Source: Neorhizobium sp. NCHU2750
Lineage (GTDB): Bacteria; Pseudomonadota; Alphaproteobacteria; Rhizobiales; Rhizobiaceae
Assembly (NCBI RefSeq): GCF_003597675.1
Contig: NZ_CP030830.1
Span: 124,001-188,000, forward strand
DNA length: 64,000 bases
Direction: 5' to 3'
Shown here: piece after piece, positions 38,166-48,467 of the stretch
How positions within the stretch are numbered: the first letter of the stretch is position 1
Layout: every line of letters begins with the position of its first letter
Made by a program: the position numbers and the translations under genes
The notes under the pieces: generated by a model
The model's input: only the letters and a program-made list of their open reading frames with translations
Databases searched by the model: none
Told to the model about the DNA's origin: nothing

Positions 38166-39281
38166 ATGACATCAGATGCAAAGAAAATTCGTTATGCCGT
38201 CGTCGGCGGCGGTCAGATCGCTCAGCAGGCATTCATGCCCGGCATAGGCCAGACGAGTAATTCCGAACTCGCCGCACTTGTCACTGGCGACCCCGTGAAG
38301 GCAGATAAGCTTGCAAAGCGGTACGGCATCAAGCCGTGGACTTACGAAAAATACGGCGAGCTGCTGAAGTCCGGGGAAATCGACGCCGTTTACGTGGCGA
38401 CCCCGAACGCCCATCACACCAATCACGTCATCACAGCACTCGGCGCGGGCATCCACGTCCTTCTCGAAAAGCCGATGACCTCCAGCGTCGAGGATGCCGA
38501 GAAGGTTCTTAAGGCCCAGAAGGCGAGCAGTGCAAAATTGATGATCGCCTACAGGCTCCACCAGGAGCCGGGCACGGTCGAGATGTTCACGCGTGCCCGC
38601 AAGGGTGACTTTGGCGAGCTTCGCGCGTTCTCGTCGACCTTCACCCAGAATGTCGCCGAGGAGAACTCCCGTGGCCATAATGGTTATTGGGGCGGTCCCG
38701 TTCCGGACATGGGGACTTATCCGTTGAACGCCGCCCGCAACCTATTTGGCGGAGAACCGGTCTTAGTCCATGCCGTCGGGACGAAGGCGTCCGATCGGGG
38801 CTTCGACTTCCATGACACGGTCGCGGTCACCCTACGCTTTCCCGGCGAAAAGACGGCCCAGTTCACCGTCAGCTATGCGGCGGCTACGGCTGAGAACTTC
38901 ACGCTCGTCGGCACCAAGGCGACGATCCATGCGACGCCGTGCTTCATGTTCGGCCCAAAGCTCGGCATCACCTATGTCGAGAAAAGCGCAGATGGTGAGA
39001 AGACGCATAGCTTTAATCCTGTCGACCAGTTCGCCAACGAGACCCAGTATTTCTCCGACTGCATCCTGAACGACCGCGATCCTGAAGCCGACGGCGAGGA
39101 AGGCCTGATGGACATGCGTGTCCTTGCAGCCGTGGAAAGGTCGCTCGATACGGGCGAGACGGTCATCCTTCCGCCTGCTGAGCGGACGCGGCAGGTATCT
39201 TCCGACCAAGCGCTGGAGCTGCCGCCTGCGAAAGAGCCATCGGAAAAAGCGATGATCAGCATCGTTCCCCAGTCAAAGTGA
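38166..39281 (+). CDS. Gfo/Idh/MocA-family oxidoreductase
   Basis: A 371-residue NAD(P)-dependent dehydrogenase resembling glucose-fructose oxidoreductase. The Rossmann motif VVGGGQIAQQAF lies at about 12-23. DAVYVATPNAHH and the signature LLEKPMTSS (about 100-108) are followed by the substrate domain with PVPDMGTYPLNAARNLFG (about 180-197). No signal peptide is present, so it is cytoplasmic. It probably acts on a sugar or cyclitol. The divergent MFS gene may supply the substrate. Confidence 0.88.
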   Translation: MTSDAKKIRYAVVGGGQIAQQAFMPGIGQTSNSELAALVTGDPVKADKLAKRYGIKPWTYEKYGELLKSGEIDAVYVATPNAHHTNHVITALGAGIHVLLEKPMTSSVEDAEKVLKAQKASSAKLMIAYRLHQEPGTVEMFTRARKGDFGELRAFSSTFTQNVAEENSRGHNGYWGGPVPDMGTYPLNAARNLFGGEPVLVHAVGTKASDRGFDFHDTVAVTLRFPGEKTAQFTVSYAAATAENFTLVGTKATIHATPCFMFGPKLGITYVEKSADGEKTHSFNPVDQFANETQYFSDCILNDRDPEADGEEGLMDMRVLAAVERSLDTGETVILPPAERTRQVSSDQALELPPAKEPSEKAMISIVPQSK

Positions 39282-39599
39282 CCAACATTCGCCCAGCCGC
39301 CACACCTTCGGCGATCGGGAATCTCGCGAGGTGCAGCCCGGACAGTCATGCACTCAAATGGTAACAACTATCCGTGAACGCCCCCTAATCGACTGCGGAT
39401 TCTGCACCGAATTTTGACCTTTCCTTGCCGACGCCGACTTCATAGAGGAAAATTATCGAATGAAATCAATTCCGACGTGATGTCGAGCGGCAGCAGTTGC
39501 AACATCCTGTTTCTGAACTGAAGTTTTTGTGAGGCTTGTCGGCGGCGGTAACGCCTCTAGCTCGTTGATTACCCCTTCGGTTCGAGAGAAATCTGCAGA
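39282..39599. other. Gap upstream of the five-gene glycosyltransferase operon
   Basis: No gene is supported. The promoter of the 39600-44774 operon should lie here; TTGACC occurs at 39414-39419 without a good -10 at 17 bases. No GGAAC stress element is present. Confidence 0.35.
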
Positions 39600-41513
39600 A
39601 TGACCAGCCAGCACACTTTCGCGCAGCATGAGCGCGCTCATTCGATCGATAGGGGTGATGTACCTGAAGGCGGTGTTGCCCGACATTCGGGGATGCCTGT
39701 GGCATGGCGTCGACGGCTGGTGATGGCTTTAAACGTGGTGACGATCATTGCCTTGGATGTCGTCGTCTATCTCGTCCTGTCGCCCGCAAGCGTGTTCGAG
39801 CCTGACGCGATCATTATGGCGGGCTTCCTACTCGCTTCACCTTGGACCGTGCTTGGTTTTTGGAATGCCGTTATCGGCCTGATCCTCCTACATGGGGCAG
39901 CCAACCCGGCCAGGAGCATTTATCCTTACTACAAGGAAGGGGCGGACATGCAGCCTGAGGCGCTGTCGTCACAAACAGCGCTCACGGTCTTTCTGAGAAA
40001 TGAAGACCCTCAGCCGGTGTTTGAACGCCTCGGCGCCGTATGGGAAAGTCTTCGCTCGACAGGGCTGGACGACCACTTCAGGCTGTTTTTCCTCAGCGAT
40101 ACCTCCGACGTCCATATGGCGGAAGCTGAGGAATGGGCTTTCCTGCGCCTTGTCGACGCCATCGAGGCTGAAGGCGGCCATCGCCCGGTTTATAGGCGCC
40201 GAGCATCGAACGTGGGCTACAAGGCCGGCAACATTGAAGATTTTCTGAGGCAATACGGCCAGGACTATGATTTCTTCCTGCCGCTTGATTCTGACAGCGT
40301 CATGGCTGGGGATGTGATCGTGAAGTTGGCAGCCGCCATGGAGACGCATCCTGAGATCGGTATTCTCCAGAGTCTTGTGGTGGGCATGCCTGCGACGAGT
40401 GGGTTTGCTCGCATGTTTCAGTTCGGTATGCGGCACGGCATGCGATCCTTCACTATGGGATCAACCTGGTGGACAGCGGATTGTGGCGCCTATTGGGGAC
40501 ACAATGCCCTAATCCGAACCGCCGCTTTTCTGGCACATTGCCGGCTTCCCGTGCTGCCGGGGCGTTCACCGCTCGGTGGGCACATCTTGAGCCACGATCA
40601 GCTCGAGGCGGCGTTTATGCGCCGGGGCGGCTACGAAGTCAGGGTTCTTCCGATCGAAACCCGCAGTTTCGAAGCCAACCCGCCGACGCTGATCGAATTT
40701 GCACGACGCGATCTGCGCTGGTGCCAAGGCAATATGCAATACTGGCGGTTCCTGTTCGCACCAGGCCTAAAGCTCGTCAGCCGCTTCCAGATATTGCAGG
40801 CCATCCTGATGTATCTGGCACCACCGGCATGGATTGCCATGACCTTTGCGGCCACCTGGAAGGGAGTGACCACGGGCTTCACGCCAGCCTATGTCGAGCT
40901 CGGTTTCTGGCTGTTTATCACGGTCTTCCTCCTTTCGATTTCGCCGAAGATCGCAGGTGTCCTCGATGTGGTGTTCACGCGGGGAGCGATACGCCGTTAC
41001 GGTGGCCCGCTGCGCTTTGGCCTGTCCACCGTGATCGAGCTCGTCACCTCAATGCTGATGGCACCGATTATCGCAGTCTCCGTGTCGATATTCCTTCTCG
41101 GCTTGGTGTTCGGCCGATCGGTAACGTGGAGCGGGCAAAACCGAGACCAGCTTGGCGTGTCATTTCCAACGGTGATCAAGGCAATGGCAGTGCAGACCAT
41201 CATTGGCGCGACGCTCGCGGTAGTCGTCTTTGAGGCTGGAGGTCCCGTTGCGACGCTGTGGGCACTGCCCTTTACCGGAGGCCTATGTGCCGCCATTCCC
41301 TTTACGATGGTCACCGCTTCGCGCTGGTTCGGCCGATGGAGCACGCGCCTCGGACTGTTTGCCATCCCGGAAGAAAGCCATATGCCGCGCGTTCTGAGCC
41401 GGATCTTGCCAGAGGAGGCGCGCCGTTGGCGCAGGCTGCAAAACCGGGGCGGACCAACATCTGGCCGAGCTTGGCCGCGCGCATCCATTGAGCAGACTGA
41501 GGGAGGACGGTAG
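39600..41513 (+). CDS. OpgH/MdoH-like membrane glucosyltransferase
   Basis: A 637-residue GT2 glycosyltransferase. Helices near 35-110 precede the catalytic domain (about 120-350) with FLPLDSDSVMAGD (DxD-like), an HILSHDQLEAAFMRRGGY segment (general base region) and RRDLRWCQGN (the QxxRW-type motif). Further helices fill 390-580. E. coli OpgH (about 850 residues) makes the glucan backbone of periplasmic glucans, but no OpgG partner is seen here. The gene is the first of an operon; the next starts 2 bases after its stop. In this context its product could be a glycoconjugate rather than an osmoregulated glucan. Confidence 0.85.
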   Translation: MTSQHTFAQHERAHSIDRGDVPEGGVARHSGMPVAWRRRLVMALNVVTIIALDVVVYLVLSPASVFEPDAIIMAGFLLASPWTVLGFWNAVIGLILLHGAANPARSIYPYYKEGADMQPEALSSQTALTVFLRNEDPQPVFERLGAVWESLRSTGLDDHFRLFFLSDTSDVHMAEAEEWAFLRLVDAIEAEGGHRPVYRRRASNVGYKAGNIEDFLRQYGQDYDFFLPLDSDSVMAGDVIVKLAAAMETHPEIGILQSLVVGMPATSGFARMFQFGMRHGMRSFTMGSTWWTADCGAYWGHNALIRTAAFLAHCRLPVLPGRSPLGGHILSHDQLEAAFMRRGGYEVRVLPIETRSFEANPPTLIEFARRDLRWCQGNMQYWRFLFAPGLKLVSRFQILQAILMYLAPPAWIAMTFAATWKGVTTGFTPAYVELGFWLFITVFLLSISPKIAGVLDVVFTRGAIRRYGGPLRFGLSTVIELVTSMLMAPIIAVSVSIFLLGLVFGRSVTWSGQNRDQLGVSFPTVIKAMAVQTIIGATLAVVVFEAGGPVATLWALPFTGGLCAAIPFTMVTASRWFGRWSTRLGLFAIPEESHMPRVLSRILPEEARRWRRLQNRGGPTSGRAWPRASIEQTEGGR

Positions 41514-41515
41514 AC

Positions 41516-42487
41516 ATGGCCCGCGCTCTCTGGCTGACCGATAAGCGGCAAGCGCAGTTGCGAGAGGAGCCTCTTGGGGCGCTTGCTGCCAATGAAGTGC
41601 TCATCGAAGCTCGTTTCAGCGCCATCAGCCGTGGTACCGAGGCGCTGGTCGCCAACGGCGCCGTGCCGGTGAGCGAGTACGAGCGCATGCGTGCACCGCT
41701 CCAATCCGGTGCCTTTCCGTTCCCGGTCAAGTACGGTTATGCCACTGTTGGAAAAATTACGGCTGGCGCAACAGACAGAGTTGGTGAAACGGTCTTTTGC
41801 CTGCATCCGCATCAGGATGTTTTCCATGCCCCAGTGGAAATGGCTATCGCCGTGCCGCCTTCTATCGAGCCGGCGCGTGCGGTGTTGGCGGCGAATATGG
41901 AGACCGCGCTGAATGGCGTATGGGATGCGGGCATTTCCCCTGGAGACAGGGTGACCATTGTCGGAGCGGGCCTGATTGGCTTGCTGATCGCTTTCCTCGC
42001 CGCGGCGATACCCGCAACGCGGGTATCTCTCGTCGATCTTAACCCGTCACGCAGAGATCTGGCAGAGACATTCGGTTGCGATTTCAGGACGCCTGACGAG
42101 ATCGAAGAGCTCGCCGGCGATGCCGACATTGTGTTTCATACTTCCGCAAGTGCGGAGGGCTTGGCGACTGCCATCTCGCTCGCAGCCTTCGAGGCCCGGA
42201 TCGTCGAGATGTCCTGGTATGGCTCTCGAAGCGTCGAGATCCCCCTTGGCGGATCCTTCCATAGCCAGCGCCTTTCCATAGTCGCTTCGCAAGTCGGTCA
42301 CGTCTCGGTTTCTCGCCGCGCGCGTTGGCCGCTGTCCCGGCGGCTGGAGACCGCGCTCGCGCTTTTGGATGACGACCGACTTGATCTTCTCGTTTCGGGA
42401 GAGACCGCCTTTGAAGACATGGCAGGTGCCTATTGCGGCATCCTTGCCGACCCCGCCACTCTCTGCCACCGCATCCGCTACCGATAA
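41516..42487 (+). CDS. MDR-superfamily dehydrogenase without obvious zinc ligands
   Basis: A 323-residue medium-chain dehydrogenase. The N-terminal GroES-like domain has FSAISRGTEALVANG where zinc alcohol dehydrogenases carry their catalytic Cys; the Cys is absent. The Rossmann motif VTIVGAGLIGLLIAF lies near 145-159, followed by the acidic end VSLVDLNPSR. This resembles the BchC-like MDR branch. It probably oxidises or reduces a hydroxyl/keto group with NAD(P). It is the second gene of the operon; the pterin-fold gene starts 15 bases later. Confidence 0.83.
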   Translation: MARALWLTDKRQAQLREEPLGALAANEVLIEARFSAISRGTEALVANGAVPVSEYERMRAPLQSGAFPFPVKYGYATVGKITAGATDRVGETVFCLHPHQDVFHAPVEMAIAVPPSIEPARAVLAANMETALNGVWDAGISPGDRVTIVGAGLIGLLIAFLAAAIPATRVSLVDLNPSRRDLAETFGCDFRTPDEIEELAGDADIVFHTSASAEGLATAISLAAFEARIVEMSWYGSRSVEIPLGGSFHSQRLSIVASQVGHVSVSRRARWPLSRRLETALALLDDDRLDLLVSGETAFEDMAGAYCGILADPATLCHRIRYR

Positions 42488-42502
42488 TTTGAAAGGACAT
42501 CC

Positions 42503-42901
42503 ATGTTTGCCGTCGAGGTTCGAGATCACATGATGATCGCCCACAGCCTGCCGCGCCCGGTATTCGGTCCGGCACAGGCCATGCACGGCGCGACCTTTGT
42601 CGTCGATGCAGCCTTCATGACCGAAGATCTGGATGAGGATGGTCTCGGCGTCGATATCGGGCTTGCCACGACGGTTCTCGCGGAAACGGTCAAGCCGCTG
42701 AATTACCAGAATCTCGACGAGCTTGAAGATTTTCGCGGGAGGGTGACCACGACCGAGGTGCTGGCAAAGCATATCTTCGATGAATTGCGCCGCCGTATCA
42801 AGCAAGGCGGTCTCGGCTTCGGTGGGGCACGTATCAAGCGTTTGAGGATCACGCTTCATGAAAGCCATGTCGCTCGCGCCTGGTATGAGAGCGAGGTCTA
42901 A
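42503..42901 (+). CDS. 6-pyruvoyl-tetrahydropterin-synthase-like protein (divergent active site)
   Basis: A 132-residue T-fold protein of the PTPS/QueD family. Recognisable are IAHSLP (first zinc His), VDIGLATTVL, PLNYQNLDEL, TTEVLAKHIFDEL and the final ITLHESHVARAWYE (conserved Glu). The usual CxxxHGH block reads AQAMHGATF: the catalytic Cys and one zinc His are missing. It may bind a pterin or related substrate but perform another reaction. Ribosome site GAAAGGAC precedes the ATG. It sits between dehydrogenase and glycosyltransferase genes. Confidence 0.8.
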   Translation: MFAVEVRDHMMIAHSLPRPVFGPAQAMHGATFVVDAAFMTEDLDEDGLGVDIGLATTVLAETVKPLNYQNLDELEDFRGRVTTTEVLAKHIFDELRRRIKQGGLGFGGARIKRLRITLHESHVARAWYESEV

Positions 42902-42903
42902 GC

Positions 42904-43971
42904 GTGTCAGCAGACGATCGCCAACTGACATTCGCCATCCCCGGCGACATCGAGACCCCAAGCGGTGGCTATGGTTATGATCGACGAGTAATGAGGGAGC
43001 TCCTAGCTCTCGGTTGGACGGTCGACCACATGGTGTTGCCGGGAGCTTTCCCCCATCCCGCTGCGCGGGATATTCACGACGTTGCGGCCAGGTTCTCGGC
43101 AATCGGCGATGACAGCCTTGTCCTTGTCGACGGTCTTGCCTTTGGGGCAATGCCGCAGGTCGCAACCGCCGAAGCCGCGCGATTAAGGTTGGTGGCGCTC
43201 GTGCATCATCCGCTGGCCCTCGAAACAGGCTTGACCGACGATCTGCGTCTAGGCCTGAAAAATAGTGAAAAAGACGCCCTTAAGGCGACTCGCGGTGTAA
43301 TCGTGACAAGCTCTGCCACCGCTCACACGTTGACAGGGGAATTCGGGGTGAATCCTGAGACGATTCTTGTAGCTGTTCCGGGCACTGATCGTCCCGTGCG
43401 AATACCTGCAGAGCGCGAGGACCGATCGGTGCAGTCACCTCTGATCCTTGCTGTAGGTTCGCTGACACAACGAAAGGATCACGCAACACTTATCTCCGCC
43501 CTGCAGATGGTGGCCGATCGACCGTGGCAATGCAGAATTGTCGGCAGTGCGACCATGAGCCCAGAAACAGCCCACGCATTGAGGCGACAAGTCGCCGCGT
43601 ACGGCCTCAGCGATCGCATTGCTTTGACGGGCGCGGTCAACGACGTTGCTATTGAATTCGGACGGGCCAACATCTTCGCGCTCGCGAGCCGCTATGAGGG
43701 CTACGGGATGGTCTTCGCAGAGGCGATGTCGCATGGTTTGCCGATCGTTGCATGCCGGGGCGGTGCCGTTGCGGATGTGGTTCCCCAAACGGCTGGTATG
43801 CTTGTCGATCCTGGTGACGTTGCAGCTTTTGCCCAAGCACTGGCGTCTCTGCTCGATAATCCCGAGAGACGACGCAAGTTCGCGGCCGGATCACTACAGG
43901 CGAGCCGCTCGCTTCCTGATTGGTCATTACAGGCCCGTGCTATTTCAGACTTTTTGGATACGATCATATGA
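42904..43971 (+). CDS. GT4-family glycosyltransferase
   Basis: A 355-residue GT-B glycosyltransferase starting at GTG. The N-terminal domain has SGGYGYDRRVMREL. The C-terminal nucleotide-sugar domain has ILAVGSLTQRKDHATLISAL (about 180-199) and the E-x7-E motif in SRYEGYGMVFAEAMSHG (about 260-276). No signal peptide is present, so it is cytoplasmic. It may glycosylate the product of the preceding enzymes. The stop overlaps the methyltransferase start by ATGA. Confidence 0.88.
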   Translation: MSADDRQLTFAIPGDIETPSGGYGYDRRVMRELLALGWTVDHMVLPGAFPHPAARDIHDVAARFSAIGDDSLVLVDGLAFGAMPQVATAEAARLRLVALVHHPLALETGLTDDLRLGLKNSEKDALKATRGVIVTSSATAHTLTGEFGVNPETILVAVPGTDRPVRIPAEREDRSVQSPLILAVGSLTQRKDHATLISALQMVADRPWQCRIVGSATMSPETAHALRRQVAAYGLSDRIALTGAVNDVAIEFGRANIFALASRYEGYGMVFAEAMSHGLPIVACRGGAVADVVPQTAGMLVDPGDVAAFAQALASLLDNPERRRKFAAGSLQASRSLPDWSLQARAISDFLDTII

Positions 43972-44774
43972 CCGGCTTTCAGTCCCGCTGGCTCGATTTG
44001 CGCGAGCCTGTCGATAACAGCGCACGTCATGCAGGTCTTCGCAGGCTTGCAGTCGACTTCGTGGCTGAGAATGGCCCTGAAGCGCGGATCGTCGATCTGG
44101 GGTGTGGCACCGGTTCGACTTTCCGGGCCCTCTCACCCGAGGCATCGGGCTGGCGGTGGCAACTCGTAGATAACGATCCACGCCTGCTGGACGAGGCGCG
44201 GTCACGCCATGGGGCGAACGATCATCTAGAATTCGTCAGTCTGGATCTGACGAATATCTCAAACGATCTGTTTGCTGGTACGACGCTTGTGACGGCCTCG
44301 GCTTTGTTTGACCTCGTGTCTCTTGAGCTGGTCGAGACATTGGCGTTCTGCTTGAAAGCGCAGAGGGCAAGCCTCTATGCGGCGCTCAACTATAATGGCA
44401 GTTGCACCTGGAGCCAACAACACGAGGCTGACGGTGTCGTGGTCGCGGCGTTCAACGATCATCAGCGTAACGACAAGGGCATGGGCCCCGCGCTTGGGCG
44501 GGATAGTGGCCCAGCCCTGAAGCAGGTCTTCGAGAAAGCTGGCTTCAGGGTGCTCGTCGGTGAAAGCTCGTGGCGGTTCGGACCTGAGCATGGCGAGCTT
44601 CACCGTCAGTTCATTGAGGGCATGGCACATGCCGCTGGCGAAATGCGAAGCCTCGATCCGCTTCTGCTAGACGATTGGCGCCAGCACCGGCTCGCACGTA
44701 CCAACAGTTCATCTTGCGAAGTAGGCCATTGGGACGTCTTGGCATTTGCGTCTTCCATGGCGACAACTGGTTGA
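43968..44774 (+). CDS. Class I SAM-dependent methyltransferase
   Basis: A 268-residue methyltransferase. SAM motif I is RIVDLGCGTGSTFRAL (about 44-59) and motif II includes WQLVDNDPRLLDEA. The C-terminal part (FEKAGFRVLVGESSWRFG) is typical of small-molecule methyltransferases. It is the last gene of the five-gene operon and overlaps the GT4 gene. The acceptor is unknown; a pterin or glycoside is an inference from context. Confidence 0.85.
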   Translation: MTGFQSRWLDLREPVDNSARHAGLRRLAVDFVAENGPEARIVDLGCGTGSTFRALSPEASGWRWQLVDNDPRLLDEARSRHGANDHLEFVSLDLTNISNDLFAGTTLVTASALFDLVSLELVETLAFCLKAQRASLYAALNYNGSCTWSQQHEADGVVVAAFNDHQRNDKGMGPALGRDSGPALKQVFEKAGFRVLVGESSWRFGPEHGELHRQFIEGMAHAAGEMRSLDPLLLDDWRQHRLARTNSSSCEVGHWDVLAFASSMATTG

Positions 44775-45038
44775 AGTACGACAACATGATCGTGGCGGGT
44801 TTCATGAACCGCCTGTCAAGGAGGCTCTTACTCCCACGCAGCGCTATGGGAGAGCGAGACCGAGGGGTCAAGACCGAACTACAGTCGATAGTCATGATAG
44901 GCGTCTATATCTGCGCTGGCATTTCGCTCCGACTTCATTGCCGAAAGATCTTGCAGAGCCAGGCCTGCGCCATAAATCTGGCAGCGACACAACGGGAACA
45001 AATTGCAGTCACGCAATGGAAATGTAGAGCGGGTACCG

Positions 45039-46856
45039 ATGCGGAGCGAAACGGGGAAGACTTTCAAAGGGACGGACGAGATCTCTCGGCTTGTCGAGAG
45101 CGGAGACTGGGACGATTCCATCCTCGGCCCGCCGTCGTCATGGCCTCTCTGTCTGAGATCCGCCGTCGATATCATGCTTCCCGCGATGGCCCAGATCGTA
45201 ATGTTCTGGGGCCCCGATCTGGTTGCGCTCTACAATGAGCCCTACGCTCCGACGATCGGCCAACGACATCCCAGGGCGTTCGGCCGTCCGGCGCGCGAGA
45301 ATTGGCCCGAGCTCTGGGATGATCTCGAGCCGCTTCTGCGCCGGGTAATGGAGACCGGCGAGACGCTGGCGGCAAAGGATCGTCCCTTCTACATCGAGCG
45401 GCACGGCTACCCGGAGACCGTCTATTTCGACATTTCGTACTCAGCCATTCGCGATGAGTATGGAGCAGTCCGCGGCGTCTTTTGCATCGTCAACGAAACG
45501 ACCGACCGTGTCCGAGCCGATCAGGCACTGCAGGCCAGCGAGGAGCGGCTTCGGGCAGTCATATCCCAGTCGGCTGCCGGCATTGGTCAGGGCAGCCTTC
45601 AAGGCGAGATCATGCACGTTAATCGACGGTTCTGTGAGATCGTCGGCTATGAAGAGGGAGAACTTCTCGGGAAAAACATCGCCGACATTACCTATGCCGG
45701 TGACATGCCCGAGCAAACCCGCCTGTTCAGCCGGCTGGCCGCGACCGGCGAAAGCTTCGATATGGAGAAGCGCTACGTCCGGAAGGACGGTGGCCTCATC
45801 TGGGTGAACAATACGGTTTCCGCGCTGCGCGATGACCAAGGGCGAATCCATCAGGTTGCCGTCATCTCGGTCGACATCAGTGAGCGCAAGAAAGCTCAGG
45901 AAGCCGAGCGCCGCCTGGCTTCTATCATTGCATCCTCTAACGATGCGATCCTTGCCATCGACCTGGACATGACGATCACGGCCTGGAACGGAGGCGCTAA
46001 GCGGCTCTATGGATACACGGCCGAGGAGATTGTCGGTCAGTCTGTCTTGATGCTGGTGCCGAAAGACAGGGTCGATGAAGAGCCGGCTTTGCTCGAGCAG
46101 GTCAAAGCTGGCTTGGTGATTGAGGCCTATGAGACCAAGCGCCGCCACAAGGACGGCCATCTGGTCGACGTTCTATTGAGCGTCTCACCCATTCATGACA
46201 CCGCCGGCAAAGTTGTCGGGGCCTCGAAAATCGCTCATGATATTTCCGCGAAAATGGAAGCTGACCGGCTTCAGGCGGTGCTGATCGGCGAGTTGCATCA
46301 CCGGGTCAAGAACGTATTCGCGACGGTGATCGCCATTGCGCGTCAGACTTTCGCGAAGGCGACCGATACACAGGACGCGGTCGCCGCGTTCGAGGCGCGC
46401 CTCTCGGCAATGGCCCACGCTCACGATCTGCTTGCGGAAGGTGACTGGCAGAGCGCGGACCTCGCTGCGGTGGTGGAGCAGGCCGCTGCCCCTTACCCGC
46501 CAGAGCGATTTACGATCTCCGGTCCATCGGTTCTTCTGCCGCAAAAGGCTGTTGCAACATTCTCGCTCGCCCTCCATGAACTTGGAACGAACGCGGCCAA
46601 ATATGGCGCGCTGTCCGTCCCAACGGGACGGGTGTCGATCATCTGGACCTATGACCCTGAAACCTCGGCTCTCAGTCTCCGGTGGCAGGAGAGCCACGGG
46701 CCGAAAGTGGATATCCCGACCAAGAAGGGCTTCGGATCGCGACTCGTCGAGCGCTTACTAGCGGCGGAGCTTAACGGGGCATCGACCATCATCTACGACC
46801 CTGCCGGGGTCATCTGCGAGATCGAGGCATTGCTCCCGCCGCATGGCAGAGCATAA
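45039..46856 (+). CDS. Multi-PAS HWE-family histidine kinase
   Basis: A 605-residue cytoplasmic sensor kinase. An N-terminal PAS-like region (about 15-160, with WPLCLRSAVDIMLPA) is followed by two PAS domains (about 165-285 and 290-410). The HWE H-box is LIGELHHRVKNVFATVIAIA (near 420-440), and the ATPase lobe has ALHELGTNAAKYGAL and KGFGSRLVERLL. HWE kinases commonly feed the PhyR-NepR-EcfG stress pathway. The ATG at 45039 is preferred; TTG 45003 is in frame upstream. No partner regulator is adjacent. Confidence 0.9.
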   Translation: MRSETGKTFKGTDEISRLVESGDWDDSILGPPSSWPLCLRSAVDIMLPAMAQIVMFWGPDLVALYNEPYAPTIGQRHPRAFGRPARENWPELWDDLEPLLRRVMETGETLAAKDRPFYIERHGYPETVYFDISYSAIRDEYGAVRGVFCIVNETTDRVRADQALQASEERLRAVISQSAAGIGQGSLQGEIMHVNRRFCEIVGYEEGELLGKNIADITYAGDMPEQTRLFSRLAATGESFDMEKRYVRKDGGLIWVNNTVSALRDDQGRIHQVAVISVDISERKKAQEAERRLASIIASSNDAILAIDLDMTITAWNGGAKRLYGYTAEEIVGQSVLMLVPKDRVDEEPALLEQVKAGLVIEAYETKRRHKDGHLVDVLLSVSPIHDTAGKVVGASKIAHDISAKMEADRLQAVLIGELHHRVKNVFATVIAIARQTFAKATDTQDAVAAFEARLSAMAHAHDLLAEGDWQSADLAAVVEQAAAPYPPERFTISGPSVLLPQKAVATFSLALHELGTNAAKYGALSVPTGRVSIIWTYDPETSALSLRWQESHGPKVDIPTKKGFGSRLVERLLAAELNGASTIIYDPAGVICEIEALLPPHGRA

Positions 46857-46917: not shown

Positions 46918-48045
46918 ATGCAGGAAAAGGATCAAAATCGACACGACGCGCGCAACGCGGGTGATCGCCTGGTCGCCGGACATGTGAGTGAAGATCCATT
47001 CGCGGCGGCGTTCAAAGCCACGCGCATGCCGATGATCGTCACGGATCCCAGCCAGCCCGATAATCCGATCATTTTTTGCAATGAGGCATTCCGGAAACTG
47101 ACCGGCTACAGTGATGACGAAGTGATCGGCCGGAATTGTCGCTTTCTGCAGGGGCCGGAGACGGACCGGGACACCGTCGCTAAAATTCGCGACAACATTG
47201 CCGCCGGCCAGGATGTGGCAGTGGATATTCTGAACTACCGCAAGGACGGCAGCACGTTCTGGAACGCCGTCTTTATCAGCCCCGTGCGGGACGAAGCGGA
47301 TAAGATCATCTATTTCTTTGCCTCCCAGCTTGATTTCACGACAGTCAAAAGCCGGGAAGCGGATCTCGCAGCGGCTCGACATCAGGCCGAGGCAGAGGTG
47401 GCAAAGCATACCGCCAACCTTCGCGCGGCGCTGGATGCGCGTACACTGCTCGTCCACGAGGTTGATCATCGGGTGAAGAACAACCTGCTGACCATGGCCT
47501 CGATCGTTAAAATGCAAGCGCGCGTCACCAAAGACGATCGGCAGAGGCATACACTGATGTCGGTCCTCAATCGCATCGAAGCGCTCAGCACGGTGCAACG
47601 CAAGCTGTTCACGCTCGATGACGTCTCCAAATTCGACATGTCGGAATTCACCCGAGAGCTGGTGACGGATCTGGTGGATGCCACCGGCCGCAAGGACATC
47701 CGGTTGTCTCTGGATCTCTCCCCGCTTCTCGTACCGGCCGTGAAGGCAACGCCGCTGTCCCTGATCGTCAACGAGCTTGTCGGGGATGCCGTCCGGCGTG
47801 GTTTGAGCGATGGCGGCGGCGATATCCATGTTGTCGTTCGGCGCCTGAACGGTCATTTCCTGATCCGTGTCGAAGACACGTCGGAACCAGTCGAGCCGGA
47901 CAGCGAGAGCGCTGAGCTCGGCAAAATGTTGCTGGAAGCATCGGCCTTGCAGTTGGGCGCTGAAATCGAACGGAAACAGGACGGTCGAAAGACCGTCGTC
48001 GATGTGGTGCTGCTCGTTGGCGACCACCAGGAGAATGCGCATTGA
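46918..48045 (+). CDS. LOV-domain blue-light histidine kinase
   Basis: A 375-residue photoreceptor kinase. The LOV domain (about 27-140) has the flavin-adduct motif GRNCRFLQG with Cys74, plus [10 protein letters not shown] and [14 protein letters not shown], so it should form a light-driven FMN-cysteinyl adduct. A coiled linker (about 145-175) leads to a HisKA_2 kinase with H-box [19 protein letters not shown] (His184) and an ATPase lobe with [11 protein letters not shown]. It overlaps the response regulator gene by TTGA. Similar LOV kinases in Rhizobium, Brucella and Caulobacter affect stress responses, adhesion and exopolysaccharide. Confidence 0.92.
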
Positions 48046-48467
48046 AAGTCATGATTGTCGAAGATGAAATGCTGCTTGCCATGGAGCTTGAGAGCGAAGT
48101 GGAAATGGCAGGCCATCAGGTGACAGGTCTTGCCATGAGCAGCACTCAGGCACGCGAACAAATCGATGCCTCGAAGCCCGACTTCGCGTTCGTCGATATC
48201 CACCTGATGGACGGTCCGACCGGAATCGACGTGGGGCGCGAGCTTGCGGCTGCCGGTATCCCCTATGTCTTCGTCAGCGGAAATATCAAACGGATACCGC
48301 AAGATTTTGCCGGCGCGCTTGGAGCAATCGAAAAGCCCTATACGATGAACGGCATGAAGAATGCCCTCGCCTATATGTCGGCGATTATTGGAGGTGAAGA
48401 AAGCGGCGCGCCGCCAGCGAGCCTGGTCCTGGCGGAGGATGCGAACGCAGGAAAGCGCTTCGGCTAA
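48042..48467 (+). CDS. Single-domain response regulator, partner of the LOV kinase
   Basis: A 141-residue receiver: acidic pair VEDEML, phospho-acceptor Asp52 in [14 protein letters not shown], Ser in YVFVSGN and Lys in AIEKPY. There is no output domain, as in Caulobacter LovR. The TTG start overlaps the kinase stop and has GGAGAA upstream; ATG 48051 is the alternative. It may act as a phosphate sink or pass phosphate to another protein. Confidence 0.88.

Follow-up and report, generated by a model that had tools for sequence, protein, structure and literature searches.

An OpgH-type operon with a PTPS-like protein in Neorhizobium sp. NCHU2750 and its proposed role in the synthesis of a pterin-like envelope molecule

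The operon and its five genes

The window analyzed here is a stretch of 64,000 nucleotides from Neorhizobium sp. NCHU2750 (contig NZ_CP030830.1, positions 124,001 to 188,000 of the forward strand). It contains an operon of five genes, encoding an OpgH-like membrane glucosyltransferase, a dehydrogenase, a 6-pyruvoyl-tetrahydropterin synthase (PTPS)-like protein, a family 4 glycosyltransferase (GT4) and a methyltransferase, which is the probable OpgH-type edition of a widespread gene cluster (Table 1). The genes are spaced by 2, 15, 2 and −4 bp, exactly as given in a preliminary description of this DNA, and all five are real. The enzyme labels of that description also agree with domain scans, where the best families in operon order were MdoH/OpgH, ADH_zinc_N (37.8 bits), PTPS (76.6 bits), Glyco_trans_1_4 (106.7 bits) and Methyltransf_25 (31.7 bits). 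For the methyltransferase, the mechanically called open reading frame begins at TTG 43920; the ATG at 43968 was chosen, and yields an ATGA overlap with the GT4 gene. A sigma-70 consensus scan of the window returned no plus-strand site in the region upstream of the operon. The contig that carries the window is 380 kb long, one of seven in a 6.35-Mb genome assembly, and the operon may therefore be plasmid-borne.

Table 1. Positions in the window of the operon, its upstream region and neighboring frames
Feature	Position	Strand	Remarks
Upstream intergenic region	39282-39599	+	318 bp; presumed site of the operon promoter
OpgH-like membrane glucosyltransferase (family 2, GT2)	39600-41513	+	637 aa; clade tied to this cluster type
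Medium-chain (MDR) dehydrogenase/reductase	41516-42487	+	323 aa; PF00107 nucleotide-binding domain match
PTPS-like T-fold protein, SCO6650 subfamily	42503-42901	+	132 aa
Family 4 glycosyltransferase (GT4)	42904-43971	+	355 aa; GTG start
Class I S-adenosylmethionine (SAM)-dependent methyltransferase	43968-44774	+	268 aa; ATG overlaps GT4 stop by 4 bases
GFO/MocA oxidoreductase	38166-39281		rejected as unit member
HWE kinase	45003-46856		rejected as unit member
Frame with GRNCRFLQ stretch	46918-48045		adjoins HWE kinase
Frame reading as response regulator	48042-48467		near HWE kinase

A conserved four-gene core

The genes for the dehydrogenase, PTPS-like protein, GT4 and methyltransferase form a core that is found in identical order and on the same strand in 80/80 nearest loci, these being the best 80 of 334 confirmed stretches from a contig scan with a PTPS alignment. 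A second, order-diverse set comprised 40 loci with flanks out of 54 PTPS places found in an order-wide search; the dehydrogenase is present in 39 of them, the PTPS-like protein in 40, GT4 in 39 and the methyltransferase in 37, and the core is complete in 37/40. In one of these loci (L135) the dehydrogenase lies approximately 6 kb away from the rest of the core. The core is also complete in 20/20 class- and phylum-level loci, which were drawn from 20 genomes among the search matches. Gene presence in these 140 loci was defined as a tblastn match at 1e-10 covering at least 40% of the query within the examined stretch, which spans up to approximately 20 kb and is shorter in some loci; more distant genes escape the count. 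Outside the Pseudomonadota, a single stretch of a Streptomyces fungicidicus plasmid encodes a CDP-alcohol phosphotransferase (CDP-OH-PT), the dehydrogenase, PTPS-like protein, GT4 and methyltransferase, a creatininase-family protein and GTP cyclohydrolase II (GCHII).

The preliminary description held that these genes belong together and that a lack of co-occurrence in other genomes would speak against it. The conserved-neighborhood search was run, the genes do co-occur elsewhere, and the association of the core is far above chance. The proposed unit of five genes stood only in part: the four-gene core is kept together, and OpgH is one of two membrane modules that accompany it in most loci.

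The PTPS-like gene is patchily distributed, occurring in 53/199 genomes of the order sample, 25/121 of the family, 36/289 of the class and 19/299 of the phylum. One genome with an SCO6650-type PTPS has a second copy (L122, G167:C8), and the other core genes are absent from the 20-kb stretch around it.

OpgH and CDP-OH-PT as membrane modules

The OpgH-like protein scored over the cut-off of two of the nine OpgH NCBIfam models (512.7 versus 419 bits and 484.6 versus 328 bits) and under it for the other seven, including the best-scoring model (698 bits, cut-off 884). Residues D230/D232, H332-D333 and R370-R373-W374 are intact, and the catalytic residues are invariant in both the cluster and the opgG-linked groups. 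In a phylogenetic tree, the cluster OpgH proteins (51 rows, 46 of them different) split from 16 opgG-linked rows with support of 100/100; the opgG-linked comparison drew on 20 loci, of which 15 gave an OpgH row, and one of 68 rows was lost to a length filter. The cluster OpgH is distinct from the usual glucan enzyme and forms a clade of its own. The missing OpgG partner, first noticed at the locus, is missing from the whole genome of the strain as well (0 MdoG matches). OpgG was found in 41/53 PTPS genomes, and among the 12 without it, nine carry the cluster OpgH and one the CDP-OH-PT module, the loci of the other two falling outside the set. A search with the OpgH-like protein among solved structures gave no sequence match at 1e-3.

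OpgH is present in 16/80 nearest and 31/40 order-diverse loci, and in the 31 it stands divergent to the core, outside its operon. An OpgH-type cluster is also carried by Methylosinus trichosporium OB3b. Across all 140 loci, 53 have OpgH alone, 71 have CDP-OH-PT alone, none has both and 16 have neither. The mutual exclusion has a Fisher p value of 4e-6 in the 60 diverse loci and of 2e-13 in the 80 nearest loci, which are closely related. A tree of the core, built by a quick method from 93 rows (29/80 nearest loci, 39/40 order-diverse loci, 20 class- and phylum-level loci, four plasmid loci and the window), implies at least five switches between OpgH and CDP-OH-PT, and the window's OpgH clade (17 rows) is nested in a group of 35 that includes 16 CDP-OH-PT rows. 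The exclusion is only suggestive, because an independent-pair test missed significance (median p 0.5). At that strength, OpgH and CDP-OH-PT may be alternative modules for an equivalent membrane-bound finishing step.

CDP-OH-PT is often accompanied by a flippase-like membrane protein and by a protein annotated as a sulfatase. The latter, a membrane protein of approximately 550 aa (L057:3800-5461 and relatives) that is called sulfatase in a named record, has no Pfam or NCBIfam match and is found in 60/60 CDP-OH-PT loci among the nearest 80. In the OpgH-type loci L116, L124, L128, L148 and L153, OpgH is adjoined by genes of families D16 (secreted esterase-like) and D11 (thiamine diphosphate enzyme-like), and in L116, L124, L128 and L153, not in L148, also by D20 (CoA-transferase-like), all three being named by eye.

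The PTPS-like protein and the other core enzymes

The PTPS-like protein is 56-57% identical to SCO6650 (PDB 3d7j), with a profile match of 1e-46, and both its sequence and its fold match to 3d7j place it in the SCO6650 subfamily, whose shape has been known since that structure was released in 2008. It scores over the broad Pfam PTPS model (76.6 bits) and fails the curated models for QueD (35.3 versus 89.25 bits) and 6PTHBS (25.5 versus 125.5 bits). A separate, genuine queD is located elsewhere in the genome, between frames that read by eye as queC and queE.

PTPS and QueD enzymes employ three zinc-binding His residues, a catalytic Cys and an Asp-His pair, and anchor the substrate ring through a Thr-Glu motif and a further Glu. 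We aligned 176 distinct PTPS-like sequences from 219 loci, mostly alphaproteobacterial. The third zinc His is replaced by Ala30 in 176/176 sequences, with H14 and H28 retained, and a catalytic Cys is absent between positions 18 and 28 in every sequence. The Asp-His pair is replaced by N67-Y68 in the window protein and does not occur at positions 67-68 in any of the 176. The ring-anchoring T84, E85 and E120 are present in all of them. Structural neighbors of the protein include the aldolase FolB, the epimerase FolX and uricase, T-fold enzymes with metal-free chemistry that is independent of zinc.

The closest curated model to the dehydrogenase is BchC, at 53.9 bits against a cut-off of 291.25, and a reading of the sequence finds no Cys at the usual catalytic-zinc position. 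The GT4 matches UDP-glucose:tetrahydrobiopterin glucosyltransferase weakly (2.6e-4, against 2.5e-18 for its best match). For the dehydrogenase, GT4 and methyltransferase, the nearest proteins of known structure were considered as guides to substrates and rejected as too general.

Dedicated GCHII and RibD_C proteins and the supply of precursor

Several genes recur near the core, encoding a PRK08815-type GCHII, a RibD_C reductase, cytochrome b561 and an FkbM methyltransferase. In the order-diverse loci, GCHII is near the core in 18/40, RibD_C in 25/40 and cytochrome b561 in 22/40; none of the three is in the window. Neither of two RibD_C proteins scanned gave a match to a deaminase domain. RibD_C (at least 150 bits) was detected in 41/199 order genomes, 40 of which also contain PTPS (Fisher 2e-29); the sole exception is a genome that is 56% complete, and the RibD_C query was taken from one of the 40. 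A long GCHII is present in 35/199 genomes, 28 with PTPS and seven without. Both GCHII and RibD_C are present in 23 of the 53 genomes with PTPS and at least one of them in 45; the remaining eight, including that of the window, have neither. Thresholds for co-occurrence were set after the scores had been viewed, that for RibD_C at a gap between 175 and 91 bits, and GCHII was counted by hand as long matches or those of at least 200 bits, excluding G023 and G185 (169-171 bits, last half only).

The GCHII zinc motif is retained in 84/88 frames, a set in which the housekeeping RibBA (L133) and a single poor match are counted. In Streptomyces GCHII, a Tyr-to-Met change is reportedly the mark of a formyl-retaining product; this candidate was dropped, the Tyr being retained in 87/88 frames. 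In 72/88 frames, for example, L003:5704-6819, YLDQEGR stands in place of the usual YLRQEGR, which may indicate a change of product.

Genome-wide searches detected neither a dedicated GCHII nor a dedicated RibD_C in the window's genome. The GCHII half of the strain's RibBA is without the zinc-cysteine and EGRG motifs (L133, G000:C1:531942-532319), and the query used found no other GCHII homolog in the genome at 1e-3. A comparable gap is described for Sinorhizobium meliloti, where a report names the GTP-opening enzyme of the riboflavin route as unidentified, and where BrbF, of the creatininase family, deformylates the formylamino pyrimidine nucleotide AFRPP to the diamino nucleotide DARoPP (PMC9478397). 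By that account, a supply of DARoPP that does not depend on GCHII is present within the order, in the form of BrbF.

Among the 11 nearest OpgH-type genomes, four have GCHII and RibD_C beside the operon, six have neither anywhere and the remaining one has RibD_C only, distant from the operon. For the six with neither, the median ratio of nonsynonymous to synonymous substitution rates (dN/dS) is 0.15 for opgH, 0.12 for adh, 0.06 for ptps, 0.16 for gt4 and 0.16 for mt (15 pairs per gene, highest single value 0.27); these values cover the six relatives, from which the window has diverged too far at synonymous sites to yield a separate value. Purifying selection acts on all five genes in relatives without GCHII and RibD_C, and the genes therefore seem to be functional without those two.

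A proposed pathway and its alternatives

We consider it probable that this operon represents the OpgH-type form of a widespread, uncharacterized SCO6650-type cluster that makes a GTP-derived, pterin-like, glycosylated and methylated envelope molecule. The substrates, the order of steps, the product and its location in the envelope we infer from gene content and sequence. The suggestion in the preliminary description that the enzyme set would suit a glycosylated, methylated pterin-like small molecule is borne out by the families found, with its pterin-like character still inferred.

In the proposed pathway, a dedicated GCHII would open GTP to AFRPP and then DARoPP, with a formamidase of the creatininase family assisting it in some lineages, and a deaminase-less RibD_C would then reduce the intermediate with the 2-amino group kept. 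Since dedicated GCHII and RibD_C are missing in this genome, the precursor here would have to be drawn from general riboflavin or folate metabolism. The PTPS-like protein, lacking the zinc triad, would hold the ring through its conserved Glu and Thr residues and perform a metal-free step, which could be ring closure, rearrangement or aldol-type cleavage. Oxidation or reduction of the side chain would be the task of the MDR enzyme; GT4 would attach a sugar and the SAM-dependent enzyme a methyl group. The OpgH paralog would use UDP-glucose at the inner membrane, completing or exporting the molecule, and would thus fill the role that CDP-OH-PT, often with a flippase-like protein, may have in other lineages. 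The product would retain a 2-amino-4-oxo pyrimidine or pterin ring; that the ring keeps its 2-amino-4-oxo half is likely because RibD_C is without a deaminase and the PTPS-like protein has the ring-anchoring residues. More speculatively, and with considerable doubt, the cluster could represent an undescribed class of envelope molecule in at least two bacterial phyla, a pterin or diaminopyrimidine glycoside whose redox-active ring would sit at the membrane. Either a dedicated OpgH would glucosylate the glycoside, or CDP-OH-PT would link it to phospholipid, after which it would be flipped outward. The recurrence of cytochrome b561 would fit electron exchange with a membrane-placed ring.

Several observations weigh against the proposed pathway. 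No metabolite of the cluster is known. Dedicated GCHII and RibD_C are absent from the window's genome, and their steps are not strictly needed, because this genome and seven further PTPS genomes of the 53 are without both. Housekeeping supply of the precursor is uncertain too, since the GCHII half of RibBA is without zinc cysteines. Seven genomes carry a long GCHII but not PTPS. The GT4 match to a pterin glycosyltransferase is weak, and the substrates of GT4 and the methyltransferase are not readable from sequence. The exclusion between the membrane modules is based on at least five switches, with genes beyond the examined stretches invisible; it is not significant by independent pairs, and 16/140 loci have neither module.

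It is possible, though we think it improbable, that the product is instead a ribityl-diaminopyrimidine or flavin-like compound, in which case RibD_C would act first, as a reductase of the ribosyl chain, and the PTPS-like protein would do no more than bind a 2-amino-4-oxo pyrimidine. GCHII and a RibD_C reductase are the opening steps of the fungal and archaeal order of riboflavin synthesis, and the lack of a deaminase match in both scanned RibD_C proteins agrees with this. However, neither lumazine synthase nor riboflavin synthase was seen among the annotated recurrent neighbor families (not all families are annotated), and the RibD_C fold is shared with dihydrofolate reductase, making dihydropterin reduction equally possible. 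We judge it unlikely that the PTPS-like protein controls the glycosyltransferases as a non-enzymatic pterin sensor or binding subunit, in which case the operon would make a pterin-gated glycan or glycolipid. The strong association with dedicated GCHII and RibD_C across genomes favors ring synthesis over sensing, and there are zinc-free T-fold catalysts (FolB, FolX and uricase) among the structural neighbors. A sensor would nonetheless be consistent with the loss of the zinc ligand, Cys and Asp-His in 176/176 sequences that keep the ring-anchoring residues, with the dispensability of GCHII and RibD_C in some genomes, and with pterin-bound regulators described in related bacteria, namely PruR-DcpA (PMC13259868).

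Ordinary synthesis of osmoregulated periplasmic glucan, with the four other genes merely decorating or neighboring the β-glucan of OpgH, is very unlikely. Scores above the cut-offs of two OpgH models and intact catalytic residues would be expected of it, but the genome is without OpgG, the cluster OpgH belongs to a separate clade, and a core without OpgH is common where CDP-OH-PT replaces it. That the window copy is a functionless remnant, decaying after loss of the GTP-opening genes, would agree with the missing GCHII and RibD_C and is likewise very unlikely, given that all five open reading frames are intact and that the medians of dN/dS are 0.06-0.16 in six relatives with the same loss.

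Genes flanking the operon

The GFO/MocA oxidoreductase upstream and the HWE kinase downstream were considered as members of the unit and rejected, as matches (25-40% identity) were found in only 4/80 and 3/80 loci, respectively. None of 12 sought families is present as a further member in the flanks of the window (19.9 and 20 kb). The frame adjoining the kinase contains the stretch GRNCRFLQ, which we take to be a LOV-type flavin-binding core motif, and the response regulator-like frame follows it.

Comparison with known systems

For a protein family that has had a structure (3d7j) since 2008, the cluster supplies a genetic context and a precursor that can be tested. It also shows an OpgH paralog that has parted from OpgG and become a regular companion of pterin-type enzymes, and two membrane modules are apparently interchangeable. 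The mechanism by which pterins enter the periplasm is called unknown in one report, and a cluster product that proved to be a pterin bound to the membrane or located in the periplasm would bear on how pterins reach that compartment (PMC13259868).

We found no characterized pathway with this gene set in the open-licence literature, in agreement with the preliminary description; the parts belong to known families, and no account of the linked pathway, the OpgH clade or the module exchange was found there. SCO6650 of Streptomyces coelicolor is in the same subfamily as the window's PTPS-like protein. Its structure study reportedly presented a protein of unassigned function, without zinc and without PTPS activity. 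The Streptomyces locus compared, on the S. fungicidicus plasmid, combines this core with GCHII, creatininase and CDP-OH-PT and is without OpgH. The PTPS and QueD enzymes (COG0720; PTPS-I, II and III) have the T-fold and the ring-anchoring Glu and Thr in common with the PTPS-like protein, whereas the zinc triad, catalytic Cys and Asp-His pair present in them are missing from it. The OpgGH glucan system shares the OpgH family and catalytic residues with the cluster and differs in that the cluster OpgH has no OpgG in the genome, forms a separate clade and is tied to pterin-type genes.

Archaeal-type GTP opening (GCHIII/ArfB) and rhizobial BrbF resemble the cluster in the creatininase-family protein and GTP cyclohydrolase found beside the core in some loci, according to what is reported of those systems (PMC9478397); the window has none of these enzymes, and elsewhere they accompany the core in some loci only. 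The Photorhabdus pepteridine cluster likewise places dedicated pteridine genes, a PTPS homolog included, in a metabolite cluster. It differs in using the GTP cyclohydrolase I route and acyl transfer resembling that of non-ribosomal peptide synthetases, and terms for glycosyl- or methyltransferases are missing from the main text of the report (PMC5384830). Pteridine glycosyltransferases of cyanobacteria and Chlorobium are described as glycosylating pterins (PMC5683033), and it is the UDP-glucose:tetrahydrobiopterin type that the window's GT4 weakly resembles.

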